A stretch of 64,000 nucleotides of DNA from Candidatus Nanopelagicales bacterium (lineage in GTDB: Bacteria > Actinomycetota > Actinomycetes > S36-B12 > CAIYMF01): positions 62,001-126,000 of the forward strand of contig JAFIHG010000034.1 in assembly GCA_017848795.1 (NCBI GenBank), in the 5' to 3' direction. The position numbers were made by a program, and so were the translations under genes. The notes beneath the pieces were generated by a model. The model ran no database searches. It saw nothing but the letters and a program-made list of their open reading frames with translations, and had not been told where the DNA came from. The first letter of the stretch is position 1; every line of letters starts with the position of its first letter. Below, piece by piece: positions 11,031 to 25,800 of this stretch.

Positions 11031-11095
11031 CCCGTGTCCCTGCTCGAATCGTCGTCAACGCGCGAAGTTGACGACGATTCGAGCAGGGACGCGGG
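11031..11095. repeat. Repeat family A palindrome, copy A2, abutting the DAK2 stop codon
   Basis: Arms 11031-11059 and 11067-11095 (29 bp, one mismatch that would be G-U in RNA) enclose a 7-nt loop. The element starts at the first base after the TGA of the DAK2 gene, exactly as copy A3 starts after the smc TGA. It could end transcription as a U-less hairpin, but the high identity between copies points to a mobile or spreading repeat. Confidence 0.88.
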
Positions 11096-11115
11096 TAGGT
11101 GGGGCGGGCCGGTTG

Positions 11116-11130
11116 ACATACTCACTATGT
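11116..11130. promoter_or_regulatory. Candidate GntR operator O1 upstream of the regulator gene
   Basis: Perfect inverted repeat ACATA-N5-TATGT. It lies 75-90 bp before the regulator start and overlaps a TTGACA word (11113-11118). The same yATA-N5-TATG pattern recurs at 18908-18922 before the aminotransferase operon. Assignment to the neighbouring GntR protein is inference. Confidence 0.45.
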
Positions 11131-11187
11131 TGTCCGCACGTGGTCCGCGGGCGCGGGCGACACCGCCTGCGGGCCGTAGGAGCCGCC

Positions 11188-11208
11188 ATGACCCCCGAGC
11201 CGCGATGA
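11188..11208 (+). CDS. Six-codon leader mini-ORF overlapping the GntR start
   Basis: ATG 11188 encodes MTPEPR and ends at TGA 11206-11208, overlapping the regulator's ATG (11205-11207) as ATGA. The only good Shine-Dalgarno in the region, TAGGAG at 11177-11182, is 5 bases before this mini-ORF, not before the regulator. A 15-base word starting at each of the two ATGs is repeated 17 bp apart, so a 17-bp tandem duplication, which shifts frame, created the arrangement. Translation of the regulator would depend on re-initiation. Confidence 0.5.
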   Translation: MTPEPR

Positions 11209-12023
11209 CCCCCGAGCCGGCACCGGCCGCCGCGCCGGGCCGGGTGCTGCGCTACCAGCAGGTCTACGACTACGTCGTGCAGCTCGTGGAGGACGAGGGA
11301 CTGCAGGCGGGGGACCGGCTGCCGAGCGCGACCGACCTGGCCGCGCGAACCGGGGTCAGCCTGATCTCGGTACGGCGTGCCCTCGACGAGCTGGAGCGGG
11401 CGGGCAAGGTGCGCCGGCACCAGGGCGTGGGCACGTTCGTGGCGCGCGGTCGCATCCCGTCGCACCCGGCCCGTCCCGGGGAGCTGCTGGAGACCCTCGC
11501 CGACGGCGCCGGCGAGCCTGTCCTCACCACCGAGCTGCTCGGGGTGTCGGTCGGCGTCCCGAGCCACAACATCGTGCGGGCGCTCGCGATCGAGCCGGGC
11601 GAGCCGGTCTGGGAGATCCTGCGGCTGCGTGCCATCGGCACCACCCCGGCCATCCTGGAGCAGGCGGTGCTGCCGCTGCGCCGCGTACCCGCACTCGACG
11701 AGGCGCTGCTCGCCGAGGGCGGCTCGCTCTACCGCTACCTGGCCGAGCGCTACGGGTTCACCGACGACTACGTCGAGCAGTCCCTCGAGGTGGACACCCC
11801 CGACGAGCGGGAGCGGGCGCGGCTCAAGCTGACCCGCCGCGAGCAGGTCGTACGTGTCCGCGGCGTGAGCTTCGACGACGCGGGTGTCGCGTTCGACTGC
11901 TTCCAGCAGACCTACCGGGCGCGCGACTTCGTGTTCTACACGGCCGGGTCGAACAACCGCCAGCTGCTCGCACCGCACGACCTCGGCGAGTGGGTGGTAC
12001 GCCCGCTCAGCCCGCCGTCGTGA
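11205..12023 (+). CDS. GntR family transcriptional regulator (HutC-type, UTRA effector domain)
   Basis: A 272-residue DNA-binding regulator. The winged HTH occupies about residues 14-80: YQQVYDYVVQLVEDEGLQAGDRLPS, then SLISVRRALDELERAGKVRRHQGVGTFVA. The rest matches the UTRA ligand domain of the HutC subfamily, with EPVWEILRLRAIGTTPAILEQAVLP and VEQSLEVDTPDERERARLKL. HutC members often respond to phosphorylated sugars, amino acids or related intermediates. The start at 11205 is the in-frame ATG coupled to the leader mini-ORF. Its 3' end overlaps the convergent importer ATPase gene by 17 bp. It probably controls the adjacent catabolic block. Confidence 0.88.
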   Translation: MTPEPAPAAAPGRVLRYQQVYDYVVQLVEDEGLQAGDRLPSATDLAARTGVSLISVRRALDELERAGKVRRHQGVGTFVARGRIPSHPARPGELLETLADGAGEPVLTTELLGVSVGVPSHNIVRALAIEPGEPVWEILRLRAIGTTPAILEQAVLPLRRVPALDEALLAEGGSLYRYLAERYGFTDDYVEQSLEVDTPDERERARLKLTRREQVVRVRGVSFDDAGVAFDCFQQTYRARDFVFYTAGSNNRQLLAPHDLGEWVVRPLSPPS

Positions 12024-13674
12024 CCGGGTCCGGCCCACGGGACGGGTCGGGGCTCGGCACCGCCGCGAGCAGGGTCCGGGTGTAGTCGGCGGCGGGCTGG
12101 TTCACGACCTGCCAGGTCGGGCCGGTCTCCACGAGCCGGCCCTGGTGCATGACGGCGATGCGGTCGGCGTAGCTCGCCGCCGTGGACAGGTCATGGGTGA
12201 TCATCAGGATGCCCATCGCGGACTGGTCGCGCAGCTCGTCGAGCAGCTCGAGGATGCCGGCGCGTACCGACACGTCGAGCATCGACACCGGTTCGTCGGC
12301 GAGCAGCAGCTCGGGGCCCAGCACCAGCGCGGAGGCGATCGCGACCCGCTGGCGCTGGCCGCCGGAGAGCTGGTGCGGGTAGCGGTCCAGGTAGCGCTCG
12401 GGCGGGGTGAGCCCGACCCGTTCCAGCGCCTCGACGACGAGCGCCCGCCGACCCGCCGCGTTCTTCCCGATCCCGTGGATGCGCAGCGGCTCCGCGAGGG
12501 TCTGGCGGACCCGGAACCGCACGTCGAGCGACTCGTACGGGTCCTGGTAGATCAGCTGGACCCGCCGGCGCAGCGGTCGCCACTGGCGGCGGGTCAGGCC
12601 GGTGACCTCGGTGCCGGCGATCCGCACCGAGCCGGAGGTCGCGGGCACCATGCCGAGCACGCACTGCAGGGTCGTGGTCTTGCCGCACCCGGACTGGCCC
12701 ACGAGCGCGACGAGTTCGCCGCGGTCCACGTGCAGCGAGACGCCGTCGACGGCGGGCGGCGTGGGTTCCCCACCGCGCCGCGCCCGGTAGGTGACCTGCA
12801 GGTCGGAGATCTGCAGCAGCGGCTCGGTCGGTGGCGGCGGGTCGGCCCGCCGTACCGCGGCCAGGTCCGGCGTGGCCTCGAACAGGCGCCGGGTGTACGG
12901 GTGGCGGGCGCCCCGGTACAGCGTGTCGACCGGTCCTTGCTCGACGATCTCGCCCTCGAGCATGACCGCGGCCCGGTCGCAGGTCTGGGCGACGACGGCG
13001 AGGTCGTGGGTCACCAGCACGACGGCGAGGTCCAGCTCGTCGGCGAGCCGTACGAGCGTCCGCAGCACCTGGTCCTGGACCACGACGTCGAGCGCGGTCG
13101 TGGGTTCGTCGGCCAGCAGCACGCGCGGCTCGCAGGACAGCGCCATCGCGATCACCGCGCGCTGGCGCATCCCGCCGGAGAGCTCGTGCGGGTAGCGCGC
13201 GCCCCACTGCGCGGGTACGCCCACCAGTTCCAGCAGCTCGCGGGCCCGGGCACGCGCCGCCCGGCCGCGGCTGACCCCGTGGACCCGCAACGCCTCGACG
13301 ATCTGCCACTCGACGGTCTTGACCGGGTTGAACGCGTTCATCGCGCCCTGGAACACCATGGCGATCTCGTTCCACCGGTGCGGGGCCACGGTGCGTTCCC
13401 CGCCGGCGAGGATGTCGGTGCCGCCCAGCAGGATCCGCCCGCTCACCGTCGCGGTCCGCGGCAGCAGGCCCATGGCCGCGAGGATCGTCGTCGTCTTGCC
13501 CGAACCGGACTCGCCGACCAGCCCGAGCCGCCCGCCCGGTGGGACGGTCAGGTTCACGTCACGCACGGTGTGCACCGGTGCGCCGCGCCGGTGCGGGTGG
13601 TCGAACCAGACGTTCAGGTCCTCGATCGCGAGCACGGGAGCGGGAACGGTCGGTACGGGCGCGCTGGTGCTCAC
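12007..13674 (-). CDS. Peptide-type ABC importer, fused double ATPase (OppD-OppF/DppD-DppF)
   Basis: A 555-residue fusion of two nucleotide-binding domains of the Opp/Dpp family. Domain 1: Walker A GESGSGKTTT, signature LSGGMRQRAVIA, Walker B VLLADEPTTALD. Domain 2: Walker A GQSGCGKTTT, signature LSGGQRQRVAIA, Walker B LLLADEPVSMLD. Each domain ends with the Opp-type HPYTRRLFEATP or ADYTRTLLAAVP tail. GTG 13674 overlaps the stop of the permease gene (GTGA), showing an operon oppB-oppC-oppDF read leftward. Many related systems use two separate ATPase genes; the fusion is known elsewhere. Confidence 0.93.
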   Translation of the reverse strand: MSTSAPVPTVPAPVLAIEDLNVWFDHPHRRGAPVHTVRDVNLTVPPGGRLGLVGESGSGKTTTILAAMGLLPRTATVSGRILLGGTDILAGGERTVAPHRWNEIAMVFQGAMNAFNPVKTVEWQIVEALRVHGVSRGRAARARARELLELVGVPAQWGARYPHELSGGMRQRAVIAMALSCEPRVLLADEPTTALDVVVQDQVLRTLVRLADELDLAVVLVTHDLAVVAQTCDRAAVMLEGEIVEQGPVDTLYRGARHPYTRRLFEATPDLAAVRRADPPPPTEPLLQISDLQVTYRARRGGEPTPPAVDGVSLHVDRGELVALVGQSGCGKTTTLQCVLGMVPATSGSVRIAGTEVTGLTRRQWRPLRRRVQLIYQDPYESLDVRFRVRQTLAEPLRIHGIGKNAAGRRALVVEALERVGLTPPERYLDRYPHQLSGGQRQRVAIASALVLGPELLLADEPVSMLDVSVRAGILELLDELRDQSAMGILMITHDLSTAASYADRIAVMHQGRLVETGPTWQVVNQPAADYTRTLLAAVPSPDPSRGPDPVTTAG

Positions 13675-14627
13675 ACCGCCTCCTTGTCCCGGCCGACGAG
13701 GGGACGCAGCCGCCACGACCACGGGGAGAGGTAGGAGACCTTCAGGCGCGGGTTGAGGGAATCCTCGATCGAGCGGCCGAGCAGGTAGCAGCCCATCACG
13801 AAGAACGCGACAGCGAGGCCCGCGGGCACAATCGCCCACCACGCACCGGCGCTGACCGCGGAGCGCTCGAACGCGCGCTCCATGATCGTGCCCCAGGTGA
13901 TCGCGGTGGGGTCGGACAGCCCGAGGAAGGCCAGTGCCGTCTCGTTGAAGATGGCGACGGTGATCGCCAGCACGGTGTTCGCCACCAGCAGCGGGCCCAC
14001 CTGCGGGACCACGTGCGCCAGCATGATCCGTACGTGTCCGGCGCCCAGCGACTCGACGCGCCGGATGTAGGTGCGCTCCCGGATGCTCTTGACCTGCGCG
14101 CGGATGACCCGCGCGGTGCCCGTCCACATCAGCAGCCCGATCACGACGATCACGTGGGACAGGCTCGGCCCCCACACCGCCGCGGTCACGATCATCAGCA
14201 CGATCTGCGGGATCACGAGGAAGTAGTCGGTGATGCGCATCAGTACGACGTCGGTGGCCCCGCCGAAGTAGCCGGAGAGGACGCCGATCACGGCGCCGAG
14301 CGTCATGGCGATCACCGTCGCGACCACCCCGACGATCATCGAGATCCGCCCGCCCTGCAGGACCAGGCTGAGCACGTCGATCCCGCCGTCGTCGCAGCCG
14401 AGCCAGTGCGCGCTCGACGGCGGTTCGTACACCGCGCAGCTCGGCTCGGTCAGGCTGTACGGCGCCACGAGCGGCCCGAACAGTGCCGCCAGCACGAAGA
14501 AGACGATCACGGCGGTGCCGACGATCGCGCTCGGCTCGCGCATCACCCCGCGCAGGGTCGCCCACAGCCCCTGGTCGGCGTGCAGCTCGACGGCGACCTC
14601 GCCGGTGCTGATCGTGTTGCTGCTCAT
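13671..14627 (-). CDS. ABC importer permease, OppC/DppC type
   Basis: A 318-residue inner-membrane permease with an N-terminal cytoplasmic tail, a first membrane helix (SAIVGTAVIVFFVLAALFGPLVAPYSL), then a periplasmic loop and five further helices. The coupling-helix region RVESLGAGHVRIMLAHVVPQ carries the EAA-type motif that contacts the ATPases. The sequence LGCDDGGIDVLSLVLQGGR corresponds to the LGTDxxGRDVLSR signature of OppC proteins. ATG 14627 overlaps the stop of the upstream permease as ATGA. Confidence 0.93.
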   Translation of the reverse strand: MSSNTISTGEVAVELHADQGLWATLRGVMREPSAIVGTAVIVFFVLAALFGPLVAPYSLTEPSCAVYEPPSSAHWLGCDDGGIDVLSLVLQGGRISMIVGVVATVIAMTLGAVIGVLSGYFGGATDVVLMRITDYFLVIPQIVLMIVTAAVWGPSLSHVIVVIGLLMWTGTARVIRAQVKSIRERTYIRRVESLGAGHVRIMLAHVVPQVGPLLVANTVLAITVAIFNETALAFLGLSDPTAITWGTIMERAFERSAVSAGAWWAIVPAGLAVAFFVMGCYLLGRSIEDSLNPRLKVSYLSPWSWRLRPLVGRDKEAV

Positions 14628-15586
14628 TCGGTGATCCGCGGATCGAGGCTGAAGTAGAGCAGGTCGGCCAGCAGGTTCAGCACGACTACGACGACCGTGA
14701 TGACCAGGAAGCCGCCCTGCAGCATCGGGTAGTCGCGGGCCAGGACCGCGTTGTAGAGCTCACGACCGATGCCGGGCCACGAGAAGATGATCTCGATCAG
14801 GATCGCGCCGGTCACGATCGACCCGAGCGAGAGGGCGACCATCGTGACGGTCGGCAGCATCGCGTTGCGCAGCGCGTACGAACGGATGATCCGCCGCTTC
14901 GGAACGCCCTTGGCGCGGGCCGTCAGGACGTAGTCCTCGCCGAGCGTCTCGAGCATCGCGGACCGCACGATCAGCGTGTTCTCCGCGTAGAGCGTGAGGA
15001 CGAGCGTGGCGACGGGCAGGATCATGTGCATCCCGACATCGCGCCACTGCTCGACCCAGGTCTGGTCTACGGCGAACGGGTCGCTCATGCCGCCGGCGGG
15101 CAGCCGCCCGGCGACGAGGATGAGCAGCATCATCCCGAGGAACTGCGTGGGGAAGGCGTAGAAGAGCACGGCGAGGTTGGTGCCGACGTGATCGCCCACC
15201 GTCCCGCGCCGGATCGCCGAGAGCACGCCGAAGCCGATGCCGATGACGAGTGCCAGCACGGTCCCGGTCGTCACCATCGGCAGCGTGTTGGCGAAGGCGG
15301 TGCGCAGGTTGTCGGTGACCGGTTGCTGGTTGGCGAAGCTGATGCCGAGGTTGCCGTGCACCAGCTCGACCAGGTAGCGCCAGTACTGCTCCCACAGCGA
15401 CTTGTCGAGGCCGAACTGGGCCGCGAGCGCGCGCTTGAGCTCGGGGGTCGCGTTGGGCACCTTGCTGAAACGGTCGACGGCGCTGCCGGGCAGCACCCGG
15501 AACAGCACGAAGTTGAGCGTGATCGCGACGAGGACCGTGACCGCGGCGAACATCGACCGCTTCCACAGGTACCCGGAGCGGCGCAC
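14624..15586 (-). CDS. ABC importer permease, OppB/DppB type
   Basis: A 320-residue permease and the first gene of the leftward importer operon. The N-terminal helix is followed by the long periplasmic segment VLPGSAVDRFSKVPNATPELKRAL...LGLDKS-type region and five more helices. The EAA-like loop reads DYVLTARAKGVPKRRIIRSYALRNAMLPTVT, a hallmark of OppB/DppB. It is divergent from the substrate-binding lipoprotein gene; the 138-bp gap must hold promoters for both. Confidence 0.93.
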   Translation of the reverse strand: MRRSGYLWKRSMFAAVTVLVAITLNFVLFRVLPGSAVDRFSKVPNATPELKRALAAQFGLDKSLWEQYWRYLVELVHGNLGISFANQQPVTDNLRTAFANTLPMVTTGTVLALVIGIGFGVLSAIRRGTVGDHVGTNLAVLFYAFPTQFLGMMLLILVAGRLPAGGMSDPFAVDQTWVEQWRDVGMHMILPVATLVLTLYAENTLIVRSAMLETLGEDYVLTARAKGVPKRRIIRSYALRNAMLPTVTMVALSLGSIVTGAILIEIIFSWPGIGRELYNAVLARDYPMLQGGFLVITVVVVVLNLLADLLYFSLDPRITE

Positions 15587-15724: not shown

Positions 15725-17401
15725 ATGGGCAGGATCCGGATCGCACTCGTCGCGGCGCTCGCCGCCCTCGCGCTCGTCACGACCGCCTGCAGCAGCGGCA
15801 GCGCGGGCGGTGGCGGCGCACCCACCGACGGCTCCGGCGGCGGCGGAGACGGCGTGCTGCGCATCGGCGCGACGGCGACGATCGACTCGCTGAACCCGTT
15901 CGTGTCCCAGTCGGACTACAGCTCGGTCGCCTACCAGTACCTCTACCCGCACCTGGTCGAGTACGACGAGAAGCTCGACCTGGTCCCGTCGTTCGCCACC
16001 GAGTGGGAGACCTCGAGCGACGGCAAGACCTGGACCTTCCACACCGTCTCCGGGGCGAAGTGGTCCGACGGCGCGCCGCTCACCGCCAAGGACGCCGCTT
16101 TCACGCTGACGATGATGGTGAAGTTCCAGTCCGGGCCGACCGCGCTGCTGGCCGGGCTGGTGCAGCACCTGAAGACGGCGACGGCGCCCGACGACAACAC
16201 GCTGGTGCTCACCTACAACGCTCCGGTCGCCAACGTGCTCGCCCAGATGCAGGGCGTCCATATCTACCCCGAGCAGGTGTGGGGTCCGCTCGCGGAAGGG
16301 GACGGCAGCAAGATCGCGACCTTCCAGAACCCGGCGCCGATCGTCGCCGGCGGGCCGTTCACGATGACCAAGTACACGAAGAACCAGCTCGCGCTCTTCG
16401 CCCGCAACCCCAACTGGTTCGGTCCGGCGCCGCACATCGACGGGTTCGGGTTCCAGTTCTTCGCCAACGACGACGCGATGGTGACCGCGCTGAAGACCGG
16501 TCAGCTGGACATGATCGGCGAGGCCACGCCGCCGACCGCCATCGAGACCCTCAACGGCGCCGGGATGAAGGTGCTCACCGGCGACAGCCTCACCTTCATG
16601 ACCTTCATCATCAACACCAACCCGAAGAAGAAGGCGCACCACGAGCTGCTCGACCCGAACGTGCGCAAGGCGATGGAGTACGCCATCGACCGCCAGCAGA
16701 TCATCGACACCGCCTGGCTCGGGCAGGCGGTGCCGGGCGCCTCGATCGTGCAGCCGGCGTCGGGGTGGAACGACCCGAGCATCAAGCCGCTCCCGTTCGA
16801 CCTCGACCAGGCGAACCAGCTGCTCGACGCGGCCGGGCTCGCCAAGGGCTCCGACGGGATCCGGGTCGCGCCCGACGGCGAGAAGATGAGCTACGACCTC
16901 GTCTTCCCGACCGAGATCGCCGGGACCGGCGACCGTACCTTCCAGATCATCCAGGGCGACTTCAAGCAGGTCGGGATCGAGCTCAAGCAGCACCGGATGG
17001 ACCCGGACGCCGCGTGGTCGGCGATCGCCGGCGACGACGACAAGTACCAGGACTACGACCTGGCGATGTGGGACTGGGTGCTGCCGCCCGACCCGCAGAC
17101 CGTGCTCGCCGCGATGACCTGCGCCCAGTGGGGCAACCTGTCCGACAGCGGCTACTGCAACCCGGCGTACGACAAGCTGTACCAGAAGCAGAGCACGCTG
17201 CTGGACCGCGACGCCCGTCAGCAGGTCGTCAACGAGATGCAGAAGATCATCTTCGACGACCGGCCCTACATCGTCCTCAACTACCCGAACGTCATCGAGG
17301 CACACAGCCCGCAGTGGGACGGGTTCGTGATGTCGCCACTGGTCGGCTCGGTCAACAACCTCTCCACGCAGACCCTGCTGGCCGTGCACAAGGCCGGCTG
17401 A
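15725..17401 (+). CDS. ABC importer substrate-binding lipoprotein (SBP family 5, peptide type)
   Basis: A 558-residue exported receptor for the divergent importer. The N-terminus has a positively charged n-region, a hydrophobic core and the lipobox VTTACSS, so it is lipid-anchored. A Gly/Ser linker is followed by the family 5 fold: LRIGATATIDSLNPF, LVEYDEKLDLVPSFATEWETSSDGKTWTF, AKWSDGAPLTAKD, and the C-terminal EMQKIIFDDRPYIVLNYPNVIEAH. Family 5 proteins bind oligopeptides, dipeptides and also glycosides or muropeptides, so the ligand is not fixed. ATG 15725 is the only start giving a signal peptide. The M17 peptidase follows after 2 bp. Confidence 0.93.
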   Translation: MGRIRIALVAALAALALVTTACSSGSAGGGGAPTDGSGGGGDGVLRIGATATIDSLNPFVSQSDYSSVAYQYLYPHLVEYDEKLDLVPSFATEWETSSDGKTWTFHTVSGAKWSDGAPLTAKDAAFTLTMMVKFQSGPTALLAGLVQHLKTATAPDDNTLVLTYNAPVANVLAQMQGVHIYPEQVWGPLAEGDGSKIATFQNPAPIVAGGPFTMTKYTKNQLALFARNPNWFGPAPHIDGFGFQFFANDDAMVTALKTGQLDMIGEATPPTAIETLNGAGMKVLTGDSLTFMTFIINTNPKKKAHHELLDPNVRKAMEYAIDRQQIIDTAWLGQAVPGASIVQPASGWNDPSIKPLPFDLDQANQLLDAAGLAKGSDGIRVAPDGEKMSYDLVFPTEIAGTGDRTFQIIQGDFKQVGIELKQHRMDPDAAWSAIAGDDDKYQDYDLAMWDWVLPPDPQTVLAAMTCAQWGNLSDSGYCNPAYDKLYQKQSTLLDRDARQQVVNEMQKIIFDDRPYIVLNYPNVIEAHSPQWDGFVMSPLVGSVNNLSTQTLLAVHKAG

Positions 17402-17403
17402 GC

Positions 17404-18888
17404 GTGCCGTCGCTGCGGCTCGCCACCCGGCCGGGCGCGCGTGGCGAGCTGCTGGTGCTGGGCGCCTGGACCGGGCGCGACGGTGCGGCCCTCGCCGCGG
17501 GCAGCGACGGGCCCGGCCTGCCGGATCCCGCCGTGCTCACCGCCCTGCTGGGCGCGGTAGGCGGCTTCACCGGGGCCGCCGGGCAGCATCTGCTGCTCCC
17601 GGTCGCGGGCAGCGGTGCCCGGAGCGCCACCGTCCCCGTGCTGCTCGTCGGGCTCGGCAGCCCGGACTCGTGGGACCTGCACCGGCTCCGGGAGGCGGCG
17701 CAGCTCGCGGCCGTACGCGCGCTCGCGCACGACCACCGCGCGCTCGCGACCCCGCTCGGGCAGCTGGCCGACGACCCGGGCGCCGGCGTACGCGCGGTCG
17801 CCGAGGGCCTGCTGCTCGGTGGGTACCACCCCGGCAAGGACGGTCGCGAGCTGCGGGCGGCGACGCTGCTCCTCGCACCGGGTACAGCGCGCCACGCGGC
17901 GGTGCGTCGCGGCTTCGACGTCGGCCGGGTCGCCGCCGGGGCCGCCAACCGGGTACGGCGACTGGTCACCGCCCCCGCGGGCGACCTGACCCCGGCGGAC
18001 CTCGCCGACGAGCTGCGTTCGTACGCCCGGGCCGCCGGCGTGGCGAGCAGTGTCTGGACCGGAAAGACTCTCGCGGACAAGGGTTTCGGCGCGGTGCTCG
18101 GCGTGGGCCGAGGCAGCCGGAACGCACCGTGCGTCGTCGAGCTGCGCGCCGGGTCCGGACCGCGCACGAAGGAGTGGGGGCTGGCCGGCAAGGGCATCAC
18201 GTTCGACGCCGGCGGGCTGAACCTCAAGCGCGACCCGCACGAGATCGCATGGATGAAGTCCGACATGGCCGGGGCGGCCGCCGTGGCGGCGGCGGTGGTC
18301 GCCGCGACCGAGCTCGGGGCCGGCGAGCCGGTGCGCGCGGTGCTGCCGCTGGCCGAGAACCTGCCCGGCGGCGCGGCGGTCCGCCCCGGCGACGTGCTGC
18401 GCCACCCGGACGGGCGCACCACCGAGGTGACCGACACCGACTGCGAGGGCCGGCTCGTGCTCGCCGACGCGCTCGCGCACCTGGCCAAGGCGCGTCCGGC
18501 GGCGCTGCTCGACGTCGGCACCCTCACCGACGGCGGCGGGGTCGGCGACGCGCTCTGGGGCTGCTGGGCCAGCGACCGCGCGCTGGCGGCCGCGCTCGTC
18601 GAGGCGGGAGCCGCGGCCGGCGAGCCGGGCTGGGAGCTCCCGCTGCGCCCGGAGTACGCCCGCCTGCTCGCCTCCGACGTCGCCGACTCCGTGAACTGCC
18701 CGCTCGACGTGCCGGACTCCGGCCAGCTCGCGGCGACCTACCTGCGCCCGTTCAGTGCCGGGCTGCCATGGGTGCACGTCGACAACGGCTCGAGCGCGTA
18801 CCTGGAACTGGCCCGCCCGCCCTGGCCGAAGGGCGCCACCGGGTCGCCCGCGCGGGCGCTGCTCGAACTGCTGCTCCGCCGCGGCTGA
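17404..18888 (+). CDS. Divergent M17 (leucyl aminopeptidase family) metallopeptidase
   Basis: A 494-residue cytosolic peptidase removing N-terminal residues from imported peptides. All expected metal ligands are present: K263 and D268 (GKGITFDAGG), D287 (MKSDMAGAAAV), D346 and E348 with R350 (DTDCEGRL). VTAPAGDLTP matches the RDLVNxPANxLTP segment. Several normally conserved spots differ: DAGG for DSGG, DTDCEGR for NTDAEGR, DVGTLTDGG for DVATLTGA, VDNGSSAYL for HLDIAGTAW. This suggests altered specificity with activity retained. It starts 2 bp after the importer receptor, so uptake and hydrolysis are probably co-transcribed. Residues in Met and Lys metal-site loops argue against a dead enzyme. 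Confidence 0.9.
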   Translation: MPSLRLATRPGARGELLVLGAWTGRDGAALAAGSDGPGLPDPAVLTALLGAVGGFTGAAGQHLLLPVAGSGARSATVPVLLVGLGSPDSWDLHRLREAAQLAAVRALAHDHRALATPLGQLADDPGAGVRAVAEGLLLGGYHPGKDGRELRAATLLLAPGTARHAAVRRGFDVGRVAAGAANRVRRLVTAPAGDLTPADLADELRSYARAAGVASSVWTGKTLADKGFGAVLGVGRGSRNAPCVVELRAGSGPRTKEWGLAGKGITFDAGGLNLKRDPHEIAWMKSDMAGAAAVAAAVVAATELGAGEPVRAVLPLAENLPGGAAVRPGDVLRHPDGRTTEVTDTDCEGRLVLADALAHLAKARPAALLDVGTLTDGGGVGDALWGCWASDRALAAALVEAGAAAGEPGWELPLRPEYARLLASDVADSVNCPLDVPDSGQLAATYLRPFSAGLPWVHVDNGSSAYLELARPPWPKGATGSPARALLELLLRRG

Positions 18889-18963: not shown

Positions 18964-20310
18964 ATGACCTTCGAGGACGACTACCGGCGGCGCACGGCCA
19001 CCTCGGCGCAGCTGTTCGAGCGCGCCAGCCGCAGCATCCCCGGCGGCGTCGGCAGCACCGCCCGCACCATCAAGCACGGCTGGGCGCCGTACCCGCTGTT
19101 CATCGCCGAGGGGCAGGGCTCGCGCATCACCGACGTCGACGGCAACGAGTACGTCGACTACCTGCTCGGCCTCGGGCCGATGATCCTCGGCCACCGGCAC
19201 CCGGTCGTGACCAAGGCGGTCGCGGACGCGATCGGGGAGTACGGCACCTGCTTCGGGCTGCCGTACGAGCTGGAGGTGCAGGCCGCGGAGAAGGTCGTTG
19301 CGGCGGTGCCGGGCATCGAGCAGGTCCGGTTCACCAACTCCGGTTCGGAAGCGGTCGGCGCCGCGGTGCGGCTGGCCCGGGCGACCACCGGCCGGCGGCT
19401 GGTGGTGCGCTTCGAAGGCCACTACCACGGCTGGCAGGACACCGTGTACTGGTCCAACCACGTCGACCCGGAGCTGGCCGGCCCCGCCGACCACCCCCGA
19501 CCGGTCGCCGCCGGACCGGGGGTGCCGCACGAGCTGTCCGACACCCTGGTCGTGCTGACCTGGAACGACCCGGAGAGCTTCACCCGGCTGATGGCCGAGC
19601 GCGGCGAGGAGATCGCCGCGGTCATCACCGAAGCGGCGGTGTTCAACACCGGCTGCATCCTGCCCGAACCCGGCTACCTCGAGCTGCTGCGCGCGGAGAC
19701 CAAGAAGTACGGCGCGCTGCTCATCTTCGACGAGGTCATCACCGGCTTCCGGTTCGCCCGGGGTGGGGCGCAGGAGTACTTCGGCGTCACCCCGGACCTG
19801 ACCACGCTCGCCAAGGGCCTGGGCGGAGGGTTCCCGGTCGCCGCGATCGGCGGCAGCACCGAGGCGATGCGGATGATCGCCGAGGGCCGCTACTCCCATT
19901 CCGGCACCTACAACGCCAACGTCGTGCAGTGCGCGGCGGTCTCGGCGACCATGGACGTCCTCGCCGAACCCGGCATCTACGACCGGGCCCGCAAGCTCGG
20001 CGACCGGCTCGCCGAGGGGCTGCGCGGGCTCGCGGTCGACAACGGCTTCGACGCGTACGTCGAGGGTCTCGGCACGGTGTTCCAGCTCTGGTTCGCCTCC
20101 CGGCCCATCAAGAACTGGCGCGACGCCGCGGCGTACGCCGACGAGGCGCTGTTCACCCGCTGGTACCAGGAGATGTCGCTGCGCGGCGTGCTGTTCCACC
20201 CGCTGCAGTTCGAGAACCTGTTCGTCTCCCTGGTTCACACCGACGCCGACATCGACCAGACCCTGAACGCCGCAGGCGACGCGCTCGCCGCGATCGCCCG
20301 CACCCGGTGA
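18964..20310 (+). CDS. Class III PLP aminotransferase (glutamate-1-semialdehyde aminomutase-like)
   Basis: A 448-residue fold-type I enzyme. PLP contacts are visible: NSGSEAVGAAVRLARA (phosphate), EGHYHGW, D256 in LLIFDEVITGFRFA and the Schiff-base lysine K284 in TTLAKGLGGGFPVAA. The N-terminal SIPGGVGSTART resembles HemL and D-amino-acid or beta-amino-acid transaminases of the same clade. Genomic context is catabolic, not tetrapyrrole synthesis, so an amino-acid or amino-sugar transaminase is more likely than HemL; some relatives act on D-amino acids. It is the first gene of a rightward operon with the kinase 40 bp downstream. Substrate unknown. Confidence 0.88.
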   Translation: MTFEDDYRRRTATSAQLFERASRSIPGGVGSTARTIKHGWAPYPLFIAEGQGSRITDVDGNEYVDYLLGLGPMILGHRHPVVTKAVADAIGEYGTCFGLPYELEVQAAEKVVAAVPGIEQVRFTNSGSEAVGAAVRLARATTGRRLVVRFEGHYHGWQDTVYWSNHVDPELAGPADHPRPVAAGPGVPHELSDTLVVLTWNDPESFTRLMAERGEEIAAVITEAAVFNTGCILPEPGYLELLRAETKKYGALLIFDEVITGFRFARGGAQEYFGVTPDLTTLAKGLGGGFPVAAIGGSTEAMRMIAEGRYSHSGTYNANVVQCAAVSATMDVLAEPGIYDRARKLGDRLAEGLRGLAVDNGFDAYVEGLGTVFQLWFASRPIKNWRDAAAYADEALFTRWYQEMSLRGVLFHPLQFENLFVSLVHTDADIDQTLNAAGDALAAIARTR

Positions 20311-20350
20311 CGGTGTCGATGCCGTACGGGCGCCTGGGAGGGTGAGCGCC

Positions 20351-21817
20351 ATGGCCGGGGCGGCGGTGGTCGGCGTCGACCTCGGCACGTCGTCGCTCAA
20401 GGTGGTGGCGCTGGACGGGGACGGAGGGGTGCTGGCCCGCGCGCGCGCCGACTACCCGACCCACCGGCCCGAACCGGGTGCCGCCGAACAGGAACCCGCC
20501 GACTGGTGGCGCGCGCTCGATCAGGCGCTGCGCGAGCTGGGGCGCGAGGTGGCCGCGGACCGCTGGTGCGCGATCGGCCTGTCGGGGATGCTGCCGACGC
20601 TCGTCGGGCTCGACCGGGACGCGCAGCCGATCGGTCGCGCGCTGACCTGGCAGGACGCGCGTGCCGACGCCGACGGCGAGCGGTACCGCGAGAGCGCGGG
20701 CACGGGCCTCTACGCCCGGACCGGGCAGTGGGTCGACGGGCGCTACCTCGTCCCGATGATGACCCGGCTGGCGGCGCAGGGCGCTCCGGCCGCCGACGCC
20801 GAATGGCTCTGCGGGGCGAAGGACGCGCTCTTCGCGCACCTGACCGGGCAGCCGGCGACCGACCCGAGCACGGCCAGCGGGTACGGCTGCTACGACCTGT
20901 CGCGCGGTCGCTGGGACGAGGCGATCGCGCCGGCGCGGTGGCGCTTGCCGGAGGTGCTGCCCTCGACCACGGCGCGGCCACTGCGCTGCGAACTCGCGGC
21001 CGCCTGGCGCGCGCCGCAGGGGCTGCCGGTCGTCCTGGGCGCCGCCGACTCGGTGCTCGGCGCGTACGCGCTCGGCATCGACGCTCCCGGCGAGGTCGCC
21101 TACCTCGCCGGCACCAGCACCGTGATCCTCGGCCGGGTGGAGGCGAGCACGCGGGACCCGGCGCACCGGTTCCTCGTCACCCCGCTCGCCGCCGGCGGGT
21201 ACGGCGCCGAGATGGACCTGCTCGCGACCGGCTCGGCGCTCGCCTGGCTCGCCGCCCTGCTGGGCCTGGCCGGGCCGGGCGAGCTGGCCCGCCTCGCCGC
21301 GGACGTCCCGCCCCCCGCAGCGCCGGTGATGCTGGCGTACCTGGCGCCGGGGGAGCAGGGCGCGCTGTGGGACCCGACGCTCACCGGTGCCCTGACCGGG
21401 CTGCACCTCGGTACGACGCGCGGGCAGCTGGCGCGTGCGCTGCGGACCGCGATCGTGGCCGAGTCCGCTCGCTGCGTGGCGGTGCTCGGGCAGCTCGCTC
21501 CCGGTTCCGCAAGCGGGGAGGTTGCGATGGCCGGTGCCGCACTGGACCGCGGGTTCGCGCAGGACCTCGCCGACGCGACCGGCCGCCCGGTGCGGCTGCA
21601 CACCGACGAGCCCGACCAGTCGGCGGTCGGCGCCGCCCGGCTCGCCGCCACCGCTGTGGGGATACGGCTACCAGCGCTAGGTACGGGCGCGGTCGCGCTC
21701 GCACCCGACCCGGACGCGGCAGGGATGTGGCGGCAGCTCGCCGCGCGGCAGGATGCGACCCGGGCGGCACTGTTCGGCGCCCGCCCGGGCGGCTCCGGCG
21801 GGCTCCGGACCGACTGA
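20351..21817 (+). CDS. FGGY-family carbohydrate kinase
   Basis: A 488-residue kinase of the xylulokinase/gluconokinase superfamily. The N-terminal phosphate loop is VVGVDLGTSSLKVVALD. CAIGLSGMLPTLVGLD, ALTWQDARADAD and GAADSVLGAYALG follow, with the second phosphate loop VAYLAGTSTVILG in the C-terminal half. FGGY enzymes mostly phosphorylate ketoses or polyols. ATG 20351 sits 7 bases after GGGAGGG; a GTG at 20342 is too close to it. The SIS gene follows after 13 bp, so the product is probably handed to that enzyme. Substrate not predictable. Confidence 0.88.
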   Translation: MAGAAVVGVDLGTSSLKVVALDGDGGVLARARADYPTHRPEPGAAEQEPADWWRALDQALRELGREVAADRWCAIGLSGMLPTLVGLDRDAQPIGRALTWQDARADADGERYRESAGTGLYARTGQWVDGRYLVPMMTRLAAQGAPAADAEWLCGAKDALFAHLTGQPATDPSTASGYGCYDLSRGRWDEAIAPARWRLPEVLPSTTARPLRCELAAAWRAPQGLPVVLGAADSVLGAYALGIDAPGEVAYLAGTSTVILGRVEASTRDPAHRFLVTPLAAGGYGAEMDLLATGSALAWLAALLGLAGPGELARLAADVPPPAAPVMLAYLAPGEQGALWDPTLTGALTGLHLGTTRGQLARALRTAIVAESARCVAVLGQLAPGSASGEVAMAGAALDRGFAQDLADATGRPVRLHTDEPDQSAVGAARLAATAVGIRLPALGTGAVALAPDPDAAGMWRQLAARQDATRAALFGARPGGSGGLRTD

Positions 21818-21830
21818 GGAGGACGGCACC

Positions 21831-22874
21831 ATGCGACGAGCGGCGAGCGCGATGCTGCGCGAGATGCACGAGCAGCCCGAGGTGCTCGGCCGCCTCGTCG
21901 CCCGCTGGGAGCGGGATGTCGGGAGGGTCCAGGAGCTGCTCGCGGCACCGCCGGTCGGCGTCGAGTTCGTCGGCCGCGGGTCCTCGGACAACGCCGCGAT
22001 GCTCGGGCGCTACGTCGTCGAGCTGTGGGCCGGCGTACCCGGGCTGCTCGCCGCACCGAGCCTGGTGACGCGGTACGGCAGCACGGCGCGCCACGCGGGG
22101 CATCTCGTCGTCGGACTGAGCCAGTCCGGCGCCACCCCGGAGATCGTCACGGTCTGCGGCGCGGCCCGCGCGGCCGGCGGGGCGACCGTCGCCGTCACCA
22201 ACGACCCCGCGGGCCCGCTCGCCGGATCGTGCGCGCTCGCCCTCGCGCTGGCGGCCGGGCCGGAGCGGGCCGTACCGGCGACAAAGACGGTGACCGCGTC
22301 GATGCTCGCGGTCCTCGCCGTCGGCACGGCGGTGGCGCGGTCGGTCGGCCGGCCCGACCCGGTGACGGCGGCGCAGCTGCGCGAGCTGCCGGACGCCGTC
22401 GCGGGGGTGCTCGCTGACGAGGAACCGGTCCGCGACCTCGCCGGGCGGTGGGCCGGGCGTGACCGGCTGCAGGTGACCGGTCGTGGCATCGGCTACGGCG
22501 CCGTGCTCGAGACCGCGCTCAAGGTCAAGGAGACGACCGGCGTCTTCGCGCAGGGATTGTCGGTCGCCGACCTGCTGCACGGCCCGATCGCGGCGCTCGA
22601 CCCGCGCGTTCCGGTCGTCCTGCTCGACACCGGAGGACCCGGCTCGCCGGACGTGCAGCAGCTGCGGCGGCGGCTCGCCGACACGGGAACGGAGTCCTCG
22701 CTCTGGTCGGCCGCTCCGGGCGCCGACATCGCGCTGCCGGCCGCGCTGCCCGAGCCGCTCGAGGTCGTCGCCGCCACGGTGCGCGGCCAGCAGCTGGCGT
22801 GCCACTGGGCGCTCGCGGTGCACCGCGACCCCGACCACCCGGCCGGGCTGTCGAAGGTGACGGTGACCCGGTGA
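21831..22874 (+). CDS. Double-SIS phosphosugar isomerase/deaminase (NagB-II / GlmS isomerase-domain / FrlB-like)
   Basis: A 347-residue tandem SIS protein equivalent to the isomerase half of GlmS without the glutaminase domain. Visible are GRGSSDNAA near residue 49, the sugar-phosphate loop LSQSGATPE near 97, PATKTVTAS, GRGIGYGAVLETALKVKETTG with the catalytic-type K231/E234, and LLHGPIAALD with H250. The N-terminal MLREMHEQPEVL pattern is typical of NagB-II (glucosamine-6-phosphate deaminase), AgaS and fructosamine-6-phosphate deglycase relatives. All release an amine or ammonia from a phosphorylated amino sugar, or isomerise it. Its place after a sugar kinase supports this step order. Confidence 0.85.
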   Translation: MRRAASAMLREMHEQPEVLGRLVARWERDVGRVQELLAAPPVGVEFVGRGSSDNAAMLGRYVVELWAGVPGLLAAPSLVTRYGSTARHAGHLVVGLSQSGATPEIVTVCGAARAAGGATVAVTNDPAGPLAGSCALALALAAGPERAVPATKTVTASMLAVLAVGTAVARSVGRPDPVTAAQLRELPDAVAGVLADEEPVRDLAGRWAGRDRLQVTGRGIGYGAVLETALKVKETTGVFAQGLSVADLLHGPIAALDPRVPVVLLDTGGPGSPDVQQLRRRLADTGTESSLWSAAPGADIALPAALPEPLEVVAATVRGQQLACHWALAVHRDPDHPAGLSKVTVTR

Positions 22875-24157
22875 GCGCCGTGACCGGGCCGCGCGCCGAC
22901 CTCGACCTGTCGCTGTACCCGCCCGGCACCCACCTCGACGGGGCCGGACGCCTGGTCGTCGGCGGCTGCGCGGTCGCCGACGTCGTGGCCGAGCACGGCA
23001 CGCCCGCCTACCTCGTCGACGAGGGCGCGCTGCGGGCCCACGCCCGCGCCTACCAGCAGGCGTTCACGACACGGCATCCGCGCTCCCTGGTGCTGTTCGC
23101 GTCCAAGTCGTTCCCGTCCGCCGCCGTCATCGGGCTCACCGCCTCCGAGGGCTGCGGCACCGACGTCGCCGCCGAGGGCGAGCTGGTGCAGGCCCTCGCC
23201 GGGGGTGCCGACCCAGGACGCATCGTGTTCCACGGGAACGCCAAGACCGACGCCGACATCGCCGCCGCGCTCGCCGCCGGCGTGCGGTACGTCGTCGTCG
23301 ACAACCTCGACGACGTGGACCGGATCTCCCGGCTGGCGCACACGCCCGTACCGGTCCTGCTGCGCGTCAGCCCGGCGGTCGACGCGAGCACCCACAGCGC
23401 GATGATGACCGGCCACGACGCGAGCAAGTTCGGCGTGCCGTCCGGGCAGATCGCCGACGTGATCGCCCGGATCCGGCGTGAGCCGATGCTCGACCTGCAC
23501 GGTCTGCACGCGCACATCGGCTCGGGCATCGGCGACCTCACCCAGTTCGAGGCCGCCGTGGCCGCGCTCGCCCGGCTGGAACGCTTCGGCGTGTACGACC
23601 TCGGCGGCGGTCTCGGCGTGCGCTACGTGCGGACCGACGCCGCACCGGACGTCGAGGAGTACGCCGAGCGGGTGGTGGCCGCGGTGCACCGCCACCTCGG
23701 CACCGACGTCGAGCTGCTCGTCGAGCCGGGCCGGTCCATGGTGGCCCGGTTCGGCATCACGGCGTACCGCGTCGTGACGGTCAAGCGCGGGCCGCGCACG
23801 CACGTCGCCGTCGACGGCGGCATGGGCGACAACCTCGAGGTGTCGCTGTACGGCCAGCCGTTCGAGCCGGCCGTGATCGACCGCACCGGCCCGCTCGAGG
23901 TGTGCGATGTCGTGGGGCGGCACTGCGAGTCCGGTGACACGCTCGCCCGCGACGTACCGCTCGTGACGCCGCGGGTGGGGGACCTGCTCACCGTCCCGGT
24001 CACCGGCGCGTACTGCTTCACGATGTCCAACAACTACAACGCCGCGCGCCGCCCACCGGTGGTCTTCTGCCGCGACGGGCAGAGCCGGCTCGCGGTGCGC
24101 CGCGAGACCTTCGACGACCTGCTCGCGCGCGAGCAGCTGCTGGTCGACCGCACGTGA
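22871..24157 (+). CDS. Diaminopimelate decarboxylase-like fold-type III PLP enzyme
   Basis: A 428-residue protein of the LysA/ornithine decarboxylase group. PLP lysine is K79 (LFASKSFPSAA); the phosphate-binding signature HAHIGSG is at 215-219 (usually HIGSQ); GGGLGV lies near 245-250; EPGRS at 285-289; CESGD at 352-356 supplies the Cys/Glu that reach into the partner subunit; and GAYCF at 379-383. These are the landmarks of meso-DAP decarboxylases. A biosynthetic lysA is normally elsewhere in actinobacteria, so this is probably a paralogue with a degradative role. GTG 22871 overlaps the SIS stop (GTGA), showing tight coupling. Confidence 0.87.
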   Translation: MSAVTGPRADLDLSLYPPGTHLDGAGRLVVGGCAVADVVAEHGTPAYLVDEGALRAHARAYQQAFTTRHPRSLVLFASKSFPSAAVIGLTASEGCGTDVAAEGELVQALAGGADPGRIVFHGNAKTDADIAAALAAGVRYVVVDNLDDVDRISRLAHTPVPVLLRVSPAVDASTHSAMMTGHDASKFGVPSGQIADVIARIRREPMLDLHGLHAHIGSGIGDLTQFEAAVAALARLERFGVYDLGGGLGVRYVRTDAAPDVEEYAERVVAAVHRHLGTDVELLVEPGRSMVARFGITAYRVVTVKRGPRTHVAVDGGMGDNLEVSLYGQPFEPAVIDRTGPLEVCDVVGRHCESGDTLARDVPLVTPRVGDLLTVPVTGAYCFTMSNNYNAARRPPVVFCRDGQSRLAVRRETFDDLLAREQLLVDRT

Positions 24158-25800
24158 CCGGCGACGACTTCGCGGGCCGCCTCGCCCGGTACGCGCGCGA
24201 GCTCTGCCGGCACCACCCGATGCCCGGGGGTGTCCTGGTGGTCGTGGACCGGGCCGGCCCGCGTCACCAGATCCCGTTCGGGGTGGCCGACGTGGCGAGC
24301 GGTCGGGAGCCGGCCGACAACGACCTCTTCCAGATCGCGTCGATCAGCAAGTCGTTCGTGGCGCTGGTGATCCTGGCCCTGGCCGAGGAGGGCCGCGTCG
24401 GCCTCGACGAGCCGGTCGTACGGTGGCTGCCCTGGCTGCAGGCCGGCCGCTGGACCGGGGACATCACCGTGCGACACCTGCTGTCCCACACCGCCGGGCT
24501 GGTCATGGGCGGCGAGGGGCTGCCCGGCGGCGAAGCCCTCACCTGGGCGCTGCGCGAGCGGGCCAGCAGCCCGCCGGGACAACGCTTCCACTACTCCAAC
24601 CATGGCTACCTGCTGCTGGGGCAGGTGATCCGCGCGGCGACCGGCCGCCCGCTCGCCGACGTGCTGCAGGAGCGGTTGTTCGGTCCGCTGGGGATCGAGC
24701 ACGACGCCGTCGGCCGGGTCACCCATGCCGACCGGTCGCGGTTCGCGACCGGGTACTGGCCGGCGTACGACGACCGGCCCTGGCTGCCCGGCGATCCGCT
24801 CGCCCCGGCGGCCTGGGTGGAACTCGACGGCGCGGACGGCTGCATCGCGGTCACGGCGCGCGGGATCGGGCGGTACCTGCGGCTGCTGCTCGGCGACGGC
24901 ACGCTCGACGGCCGCACCGTGGTTGCTCCCGCGGTGCTGTCCCGACTCGGCGAGCCGGCCGCACCCGAGGGCGAAGACGTCCTGGCGCCCGACGGGTATC
25001 CGCCGGTGACCCTCAGCCGGTACGGCCTCGGGCTGAACCACGAGGTGATCGCCGGACGGCCCTGCCTGACCCACGGCGGCGGCAACATCGGCTACGCCTC
25101 GTTCGTCATCGCCGACCCGCAGGCCGACGTGGGCATCGGCGTGCTCACCAACGCGAACGGCGACTGCCTCGCCGCCCAGCACCTGGCGCGGGTCGCGCAC
25201 GGCATCCTCACCGAGGCGGCGCCGTCGTACGACGCGCTGCCGCGTGCCGACCTGCAGGTCCGCGCGGGCGAGCTGCCCAGCGCCCTGCTCGGCGCCTTCA
25301 CCGCGGACGGCACGGATCTCGAGCTGCGGGACGACCAACGAGGCGTACGGCTGCGCGACGCCCGCGGCCGCACCGGCCGGCTCTGGCGCACCTTGCTCGG
25401 TCGTTACGTGACCGACCACCCGCTGCTGCGGCCGTACCTCCTCGACGCGACGAGCGAGGGATGGGACGTCGGTCCGTACCTTTTCCGCCGCGGCGAGGGC
25501 ACCGCGGTCGCTGGCGCCGGTGCGGACCTCGCGCCGTACGTCGGGCACTACCGCTCCTGGACGCCCTGGTTCCCCGACTTCCGCATCGCGCCGCGCGGCG
25601 GCGCACTGCTGCTCTGCGCGCCCGGCGGGGTGGAGGCGCCGATGAGCGACGAGCGGCTCGTACCGGTGGGGGAGGGCCGCTTCCGGATCGGCGCCGACGA
25701 CTGGCTGCCGGAACGGCTGACCGAGCTCGCGCGGGTCGACGGCGCCGTCGTGCTGCTCGACCGCGACGGCGCCCGCTACTCCCGCACCTTCACCCCCTGA
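24154..25800 (+). CDS. Serine hydrolase of the beta-lactamase/D-aminopeptidase (class C-like) fold
   Basis: A 548-residue protein. Active-site motifs are SISK (S63-K66), YSN (147-149) and HGGG (307-310, the KTG position), the set found in DD-peptidases, esterases and D-aminopeptidases. A C-terminal region of about 200 residues follows, as in D-aminopeptidase DAP-type proteins. No signal peptide or membrane segment is seen, so it is cytoplasmic and unlikely to protect against antibiotics. GTG 24154 overlaps the decarboxylase stop (GTGA). In context it could split D-amino-acid-containing or other unusual amide or ester bonds of imported material. Confidence 0.85.
   Translation: MTGDDFAGRLARYARELCRHHPMPGGVLVVVDRAGPRHQIPFGVADVASGREPADNDLFQIASISKSFVALVILALAEEGRVGLDEPVVRWLPWLQAGRWTGDITVRHLLSHTAGLVMGGEGLPGGEALTWALRERASSPPGQRFHYSNHGYLLLGQVIRAATGRPLADVLQERLFGPLGIEHDAVGRVTHADRSRFATGYWPAYDDRPWLPGDPLAPAAWVELDGADGCIAVTARGIGRYLRLLLGDGTLDGRTVVAPAVLSRLGEPAAPEGEDVLAPDGYPPVTLSRYGLGLNHEVIAGRPCLTHGGGNIGYASFVIADPQADVGIGVLTNANGDCLAAQHLARVAHGILTEAAPSYDALPRADLQVRAGELPSALLGAFTADGTDLELRDDQRGVRLRDARGRTGRLWRTLLGRYVTDHPLLRPYLLDATSEGWDVGPYLFRRGEGTAVAGAGADLAPYVGHYRSWTPWFPDFRIAPRGGALLLCAPGGVEAPMSDERLVPVGEGRFRIGADDWLPERLTELARVDGAVVLLDRDGARYSRTFTP

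Follow-up and report, generated by a model that had tools for sequence, protein, structure and literature searches.

An acidic residue on the specificity helix marks a lysA-labelled actinobacterial decarboxylase subfamily that may act on cationic amino acids

The 64,000-nucleotide stretch of DNA analysed here (the window; positions 62,001 to 126,000 of contig JAFIHG010000034.1, assembly GCA_017848795.1, Candidatus Nanopelagicales bacterium) carries, at 22871-24157 on the forward strand, a gene that sequence models label lysA, the gene for diaminopimelate (DAP) decarboxylase. We propose that this gene represents a widespread actinobacterial subfamily that bears the lysA label while decarboxylating another, cationic amino acid. 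Part of the subfamily would act within an undescribed amino-sugar/peptide pathway, together with an aminotransferase, an FGGY-family kinase and an exchangeable deaminase. We assign this overall reading a probability of about 0.45. It is built on a single position of the active site, residue 323, on the separation of the subfamily from canonical LysA in a tree, on the presence of a second lysA in the same genomes, and on an operon whose core is retained while its other parts are exchanged.

The open reading frame check indicates a real gene of 428 amino acids with a GTG start codon. It overlaps the preceding gene for a SIS-domain protein (ending at 22874) and the following beta-lactamase-family gene (starting at 24154) by four bases each, which makes the translational coupling suggested by the initial annotation plausible. 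The active-site motifs named there can likewise be read in the protein, namely the pyridoxal phosphate (PLP) lysine K79, HIGSG, EPGR (285-288), CESGD (352-356) and GAY (379-381). The gene product is a member of the LysA-fold (alanine-racemase-fold) PLP decarboxylase family. It shares with LysA the PLP lysine, HIGS, EPGR, CESGD and GAY, but it has Glu323 in place of the specificity-helix arginine that binds the distal carboxylate. Related enzymes with their own models are not matched either: the window protein reaches 121.7 bits with the DokD model (NF052544, cut-off 700) and 74 bits with the FslC model (cut-off 500). Transfer of a substrate by annotation was considered and rejected, lysA being the sole curated NCBIfam model whose cut-off the protein passes. 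This model, TIGR01048, does not separate the paralogue group from lysA, as the acidic-motif proteins of all seven other genomes pass it too.

The distinguishing position was defined by comparison with the DAP decarboxylase of T. maritima. According to the available part of PMC8277567, the distal carboxylate of DAP is salt-bridged in this enzyme by Arg249 and Arg285, and the distal amine is held by Glu315 of the partner subunit. The spacing of Arg288, residue 323 and Glu353 in the window protein (35 + 30 residues, versus 36 + 30 for T. maritima 249-285-315), together with the motif, suggests that these three positions correspond. On this mapping, the window protein retains the two outer members of the triad and has Glu323 between them. 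Arginine occupies position 323 in 11 of 11 canonical LysA proteins, comprising the one of the own genome, seven from other genomes and those of E. coli, M. tuberculosis and C. glutamicum; in alignments of Protein Data Bank (PDB) chains, the corresponding segment reads DNIRTALYG in M. tuberculosis and DNIRPALYG in C. glutamicum. In contrast, all 79 readable near relatives of the window protein are acidic at this position (Glu in 64, Asp in 15). These relatives are the best 80 of 578 loci in a species-level genome collection, picked by likeness to the window protein, so that the count holds for the acidic-site subfamily rather than for LysA-like proteins at large. Of the six peptides used for the search, one (VDGGMGDN) stops two residues short of Glu323, and one locus (L056) was left out of the count because its frame stops before position 323. 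Since an acidic residue here should repel the distal carboxylate, meso-DAP is an unlikely substrate, and we consider it very probable that the window enzyme is not a DAP decarboxylase.

The initial annotation had instead pointed to HIGSG, as opposed to HIGSQ in LysA, and had overlooked Glu323. The contrast does not distinguish the two groups: E. coli K-12 LysA itself carries HIGSG, for which reason we rejected this motif as a sign of changed function, and glutamine is found at its final position in 79 of the 79 readable relatives. Glycine at this position is shared by the window protein and L108, a relative of the same order outside the 79.

An AlphaFold2 model calculated from 34 sequences (pLDDT 92.9, pTM 0.91) places Glu323 within a helix spanning residues 318-327, which we take to be the specificity helix; the model is a ligand-free monomer and speaks to the fold rather than to the pocket. 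The closest structural matches are DAP decarboxylases (4xg1_D, Z 47.2, root-mean-square deviation (rmsd) 1.6 over 386 residues; 1hkw_A, Z 45.7, rmsd 1.9 over 407), followed by a D-ornithine/D-lysine decarboxylase (9cpz_B, Z 42.7, rmsd 2.1 over 411). The position and composition of the specificity helix are described in passages of PMC7857480 as a means of substrate change in this fold. In carboxyspermidine decarboxylase (CASDC), as given in an excerpt of PMC11866407, this helix positions Asp276 at the substrate's terminal amine. By analogy, Glu or Asp in this helix suits a substrate whose far end is cationic.

Sequence relationships divide the proteins along the same line. In a tree of 51 rows, which contains a long E. 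coli branch, 40 acidic-site and 9 canonical proteins are split by one branch (support 94/88; recovered in 98% of 200 bootstrap trees), and the window protein lies on the side opposite to canonical LysA.

The genome itself (G000; 3.4 Mb in 57 contigs, rated 98% complete) holds one other match to TIGR01048. This second gene, on contig C24, scores higher (461.9 bits), and its product is about 38-39% identical to the window protein. The window gene is thus a paralogue, because a stronger canonical lysA stands elsewhere in the genome. The initial annotation had described it as a paralogue in a catabolic-looking operon and had called for a search for a second lysA; both the description and the search have held up, and its proviso that this might be the only lysA in the genome does not apply. 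The same arrangement was found in related genomes. A DNA pattern for the acidic motif, which requires GA at the Glu/Asp codon, matched 8 of 296 genomes of the class, the own genome included. In the seven others the acidic residue is present by construction, while the presence of a second lysA is not, and a higher-scoring second lysA was found in all seven (eight of eight with the own genome). As each genome holds a canonical lysA, lysine synthesis is covered by another gene in all eight. Furthermore, in line with the absence of lysine-synthesis genes reported earlier, none was found among the window neighbours tested (ThiL, ThiD, FakA-like, GntR/UTRA, Dpp and operon genes, RecG, RsmD, PlsX), although not every open reading frame of the window was scanned.

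Taken at the level of sequence, the window protein is probably a working PLP decarboxylase whose specificity has shifted away from meso-DAP. K79, EPGR, CESGD and GAY would hold the cofactor in the manner of LysA. An acidic pair made of Glu323 and, from the partner subunit, Glu353 (in CESGD) would grip a distal amino or guanidino group rather than a carboxylate, and a substrate with a cationic distal end appears likely. A basic amino acid with a reach about that of DAP, of the lysine, ornithine or arginine type, would be converted to a diamine and CO2. The D form is quite possible, since it is a D centre on which LysA acts. What the initial annotation had named as an outcome contradicting its proposal, a substrate unrelated to DAP, is now favoured.

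The genes surrounding the decarboxylase are listed in Table 1. The importer genes span 12007-15586 on the reverse strand, and the binding lipoprotein is divergent from them.

Table 1. Features of the decarboxylase locus in window coordinates, with the basis of each assignment.
Feature	Position	Strand	Basis
GntR/UTRA regulator, convergent with the transporter genes; candidate regulator only	11034..12023	+	family match
Fused Opp/Dpp ATPases, two ATP-binding cassette (ABC) domains	12007..13674	-	read from sequence
Opp/Dpp permease C, divergent	13671..14627	-	position and similarity to related-locus permeases
Opp/Dpp permease B, divergent	14624..15586	-	family match
Oligopeptide/nickel-type substrate-binding lipoprotein, N-terminus ...LVTTAC	15725..17401	+	family match, sequence
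M17 (leucyl) aminopeptidase	17404..18888	+	family match
HemL-like class III PLP aminotransferase/aminomutase	18964..20310	+	TIGR00713, 405 bits, below cut-off 527.3
FGGY-family sugar kinase	20342..21817	+	best model XylB, 181.6 bits, below cut-off
SIS-domain protein, NagB-II/GlmS-isomerase-like	21831..22874	+	best model match NF046059, 154 bits, below cut-off 430
LysA-fold (alanine-racemase-fold) PLP decarboxylase, acidic specificity-helix Glu323	22871..24157	+	family models, motifs, predicted structure
Codon of Glu323 (numbered from 22871), replacing the DAP-distal-carboxylate Arg of LysA	23837..23839	+	alignment; role of Arg from the available part of PMC8277567
Beta-lactamase-family serine hydrolase (SISK, YSN), D-aminopeptidase/AmpH-like	24154..25800	+	family match, motifs

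What we take to be the metal-site motifs of the M17 aminopeptidase look intact. The HemL-like protein, below the cut-off of the hemL model, passes the broader PRK00062 subfamily model (427.3 versus 398). Judging from families and context, the Opp/Dpp importer would take up a peptide-like conjugate, which an M17 or M20 peptidase and the D-aminopeptidase-like serine hydrolase would cleave. In the putative order of steps, the HemL-like aminotransferase, the FGGY kinase and the deaminase-like protein would route the amino-sugar part to central metabolism, and the decarboxylase would strip CO2 from the liberated basic amino acid. HemL chemistry yields a 1-amino ketone from a 2-amino aldehyde. With this chemistry in mind, it is tempting to imagine glucosamine being converted to 1-amino-1-deoxyfructose and passed to an FGGY ketose kinase. 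That the pathway feeds on an amino-sugar/peptide conjugate is a tentative proposal, to which we give somewhat less weight than to the cationic substrate.

The gene set recurs in two forms. Type A comprises six named loci (L003-L007 and L012), five of them from Mycolicibacterium or Mycobacterium, which have the gene set of the window without the SIS gene; the hydrolase is present in five of the six. Type B comprises L017, L043, L046, L048, L052, L057 and L060, plus genome G361, with an aminotransferase and a kinase identical to those of L057. Compared with the window, type B aminotransferases are 79-84% identical and the kinases 49-51%, the decarboxylases only 53-56%; the Opp/Dpp importer is more distant (permeases 35-42%). 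An M20 peptidase replaces M17, and a NagB-fold deaminase-like protein occurs in six of the seven named loci (249 bits with PRK00443-4 and 206 bits with TIGR00502, both below cut-off). No match to a NagB-fold protein (TIGR00502) was found in the genome of the window. A further locus from the window's own order (L123, genome G561) contains the aminotransferase, kinase, GntR/UTRA regulator, importer, M20 peptidase, decarboxylase (69%), hydrolase and a divergent SIS gene.

Each type lies to one side of a branch in the trees of the aminotransferase and the kinase, where type B adjoins the type A of mycobacteria. The decarboxylases behave differently: type A and the type-B rows placed in the tree (L017, L043 and L112, the copy of G361) fall in two different halves of the acidic-site group, and the type-B decarboxylases outside the tree are 77-92% identical to that of L043. 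Because the aminotransferases and kinases group closely while the type A and type B decarboxylases come from different subclades, the decarboxylase seems to have been swapped around a constant core; the core would so have stayed, with one decarboxylase giving way to another from a different branch of the acidic-site subfamily. A similar exchange is seen between kinase and decarboxylase, where one slot is occupied by unrelated folds, SIS in the window (21831-22874) and NagB in L043 (L043:9243-9983). Both slot proteins are nearest to glucosamine-6-phosphate deaminases, with all scores below cut-offs. That equivalents have replaced parts of the operon (peptidase, deaminase, decarboxylase) is good reason to regard a decarboxylase of this specificity as part of the pathway.

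Across the 80 loci, whose neighbour counts include the operon loci and whose Pfam labels come from representatives, 42 have at least one of three kinds of transporter within 7 kb: an amino-acid/polyamine-type (APC) permease, a family-3 amino-acid ABC system, or Opp/Dpp-like genes, the last class being inflated by cross-matches of ABC ATPases. Near relatives are accompanied by APC permeases in 18 loci, family-3 amino-acid ABC systems in 8 and PucR-type regulators in 19 of the 80, and two loci have a gene resembling D-serine dehydratase or D-threonine aldolase close by. These surroundings favour amino-acid catabolism; they agree with a D-amino acid, which they do not prove. An aspartate-aminotransferase-fold (AAT-fold) decarboxylase of the Orn/Lys/Arg type (Pfam label from L070) lies within 3 kb in L028, L045, L070, L073 and L082, and three of these five loci also have an APC permease nearby.

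Several observations weigh against the proposed interpretation. The window protein scores 385.7 bits with the lysA equivalog model, above its cut-off of 297.9, and retains Arg288 of EPGR, by spacing the counterpart of a distal-carboxylate arginine of T. maritima. The charge rule is also not absolute, as the T. maritima enzyme shows low D-ornithine activity with its arginine in place (available part of PMC8277567). The sole hint towards DAP comes from the M20 peptidase of the sister operons: it scores with the ArgE/DapE family, at 204.5 bits against a cut-off of 217.6 and with no curated cut-off passed, and may reflect a link to DAP-like compounds. As for the pathway, seven among the 13 operon loci (the six of type A and L017) yielded no deaminase-like gene. 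None of the tested amino-acid or peptide transporters lies within 7 kb in 38 of the 80 loci. Relatives of the GntR/UTRA regulator of the window or of L123 were found within 7 kb in none of the 80, several of which end near the importer, and the link of the regulator to the operon therefore comes from the window and L123. Finally, malQ (4-alpha-glucanotransferase) lies within 2.5 kb of the decarboxylase in 16 of the 80 loci, all of mycobacterial type (L018-L022, L024, L026, L027, L030, L034, L038, L039, L042, L050, L071, L079), with no obvious metabolic link and without bearing on amines.

Three other explanations were weighed. The operon could serve a modified amino acid linked to a sugar part, for example a glycated or N-acylated basic one, decarboxylated before or after removal of the sugar, comparable to the action of FslC/FigC and SbnH, enzymes of this fold, on citryl-amino acids. 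Decarboxylases of the alanine-racemase (AR) fold take large N-substituted substrates by shifting the specificity helix (consulted part of PMC7857480), and an FGGY kinase and a SIS/NagB deaminase-like protein stand within the operon. Fructosamine operons similarly join an importer, a kinase, a deglycase and a repressor that is compared to NagR of the GntR type in passages of PMC12632257. The low FslC score fits such a substrate poorly, as does that of the SIS protein with E. coli-type FrlB (NF008481; 18.9 bits, cut-off 430), and in 66 of the 80 loci, some of them short, no HemL-like gene lies within 7 kb of the decarboxylase. We regard this explanation as unlikely.

The proposal of the initial annotation was a second meso-DAP decarboxylase that makes usable lysine from DAP released from peptidoglycan. 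It would account for the lysA-level score and the retained PLP-site motifs, and also for the peptide importer, aminopeptidase and D-aminopeptidase-like hydrolase adjoining the decarboxylase. The type-B M20 peptidase is ArgE/DapE-like as well, with succinyl-DAP desuccinylase models scoring lower. However, Glu or Asp replaces the distal-carboxylate arginine in every readable relative, a canonical lysA is present in all eight genomes, no peptidoglycan-recycling gene was recognised among the annotated neighbours, and the partner genes look like peptide and amino-sugar catabolism. This conversion is not favoured, and we hold it to be improbable. A polyamine-making enzyme (cadaverine, putrescine or agmatine) standing in the operon by chance would suit the acidic specificity-helix residue, as in the amine-binding relative, and the five loci with an AAT-fold decarboxylase, but it is very improbable: 13 named loci keep the gene set, and do so with decarboxylases drawn from two subclades, which is too regular for chance, and no spermidine-synthesis gene was seen among the annotated neighbours of representative loci.

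The HemL-like enzyme is rare: at E <= 1e-130, four out of 396 genomes in the phylum have it, the own included. Relatives with about 56-59% identity lie on plasmids of Roseomonas, Aureimonas and Azospirillum, where in two annotated records they adjoin acetyltransferase, hydrolase and HAD-phosphatase genes, a setting that does not identify the reaction; a third such record and that of an Embleya relative carry no annotation at the gene. The own genome has no match to hemA (TIGR01035) or hemB (PF00490) and no hemL above cut-off, which would mean either that a stretch is missing from the assembly or that the organism is a haem auxotroph. For want of such a hemL, the HemL-like protein was considered as the genome's own. 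This role is unlikely because hemA and hemB were also not found, and because G361 and G561, the two relatives tested, hold both the same aminotransferase and a canonical hemL; it is more probable that the assembly has a gap here or that the pathway has been lost altogether.

No paper on the acidic-site subfamily or the operon was found among open-licence literature, searched by titles and the starts of abstracts. If the interpretation is correct, a curated equivalog model gives the name of the final lysine-synthesis enzyme to a subfamily that recurs in actinobacteria and does not merit it, and pathway reconstructions and counts of 'redundant' lysA genes would be distorted. One residue, 323, would then be a simple marker telling the two functions apart. 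As for the operon, three exchangeable parts around an unchanging aminotransferase-kinase core suggest that environmental mycobacteria and their relatives have a catabolic pathway not yet described.

Compared with known enzymes, the window protein shares with LysA (TIGR01048; PDB 1hkv, 5x7m) the fold, the PLP lysine and the HIGS, EPGR, CESGD and GAY motifs. In alignment A1, its identity to the four canonical proteins is 34-42%, and it matches M. tuberculosis LysA with the Z of 45.7 given above. It differs in the Glu/Asp on its side of the tree in place of the distal-carboxylate arginine, and in its catabolic-looking operon. The D-ornithine/D-lysine decarboxylase DokD (NF052544; PDB 6n2h, 9cpz) has the same fold and is likewise a LysA-like enzyme acting on a basic amino acid, but identity is about 26% and the score lies far below the cut-off. 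Carboxyspermidine and ornithine decarboxylases of the AR fold have an acidic specificity-helix residue for the terminal amine, as reported for CASDC Asp276 in the part of PMC11866407 cited above, whereas the ornithine decarboxylase chains are farther from the window protein (22-24% identity over 335-360 residues, Z 34.6-37.2). At the level of the operon, the frl (fructosamine) and nag (N-acetylglucosamine) systems share an importer, a sugar kinase and a SIS- or NagB-type deaminase/deglycase-like protein, as well as a GntR/UTRA regulator, which lies beside the operon in the window and inside that of L123. In contrast to these systems, the window-type operon uses an FGGY kinase, its SIS and NagB-like proteins fall under the curated cut-offs, and it adds a HemL-like aminotransferase and an amino-acid decarboxylase.

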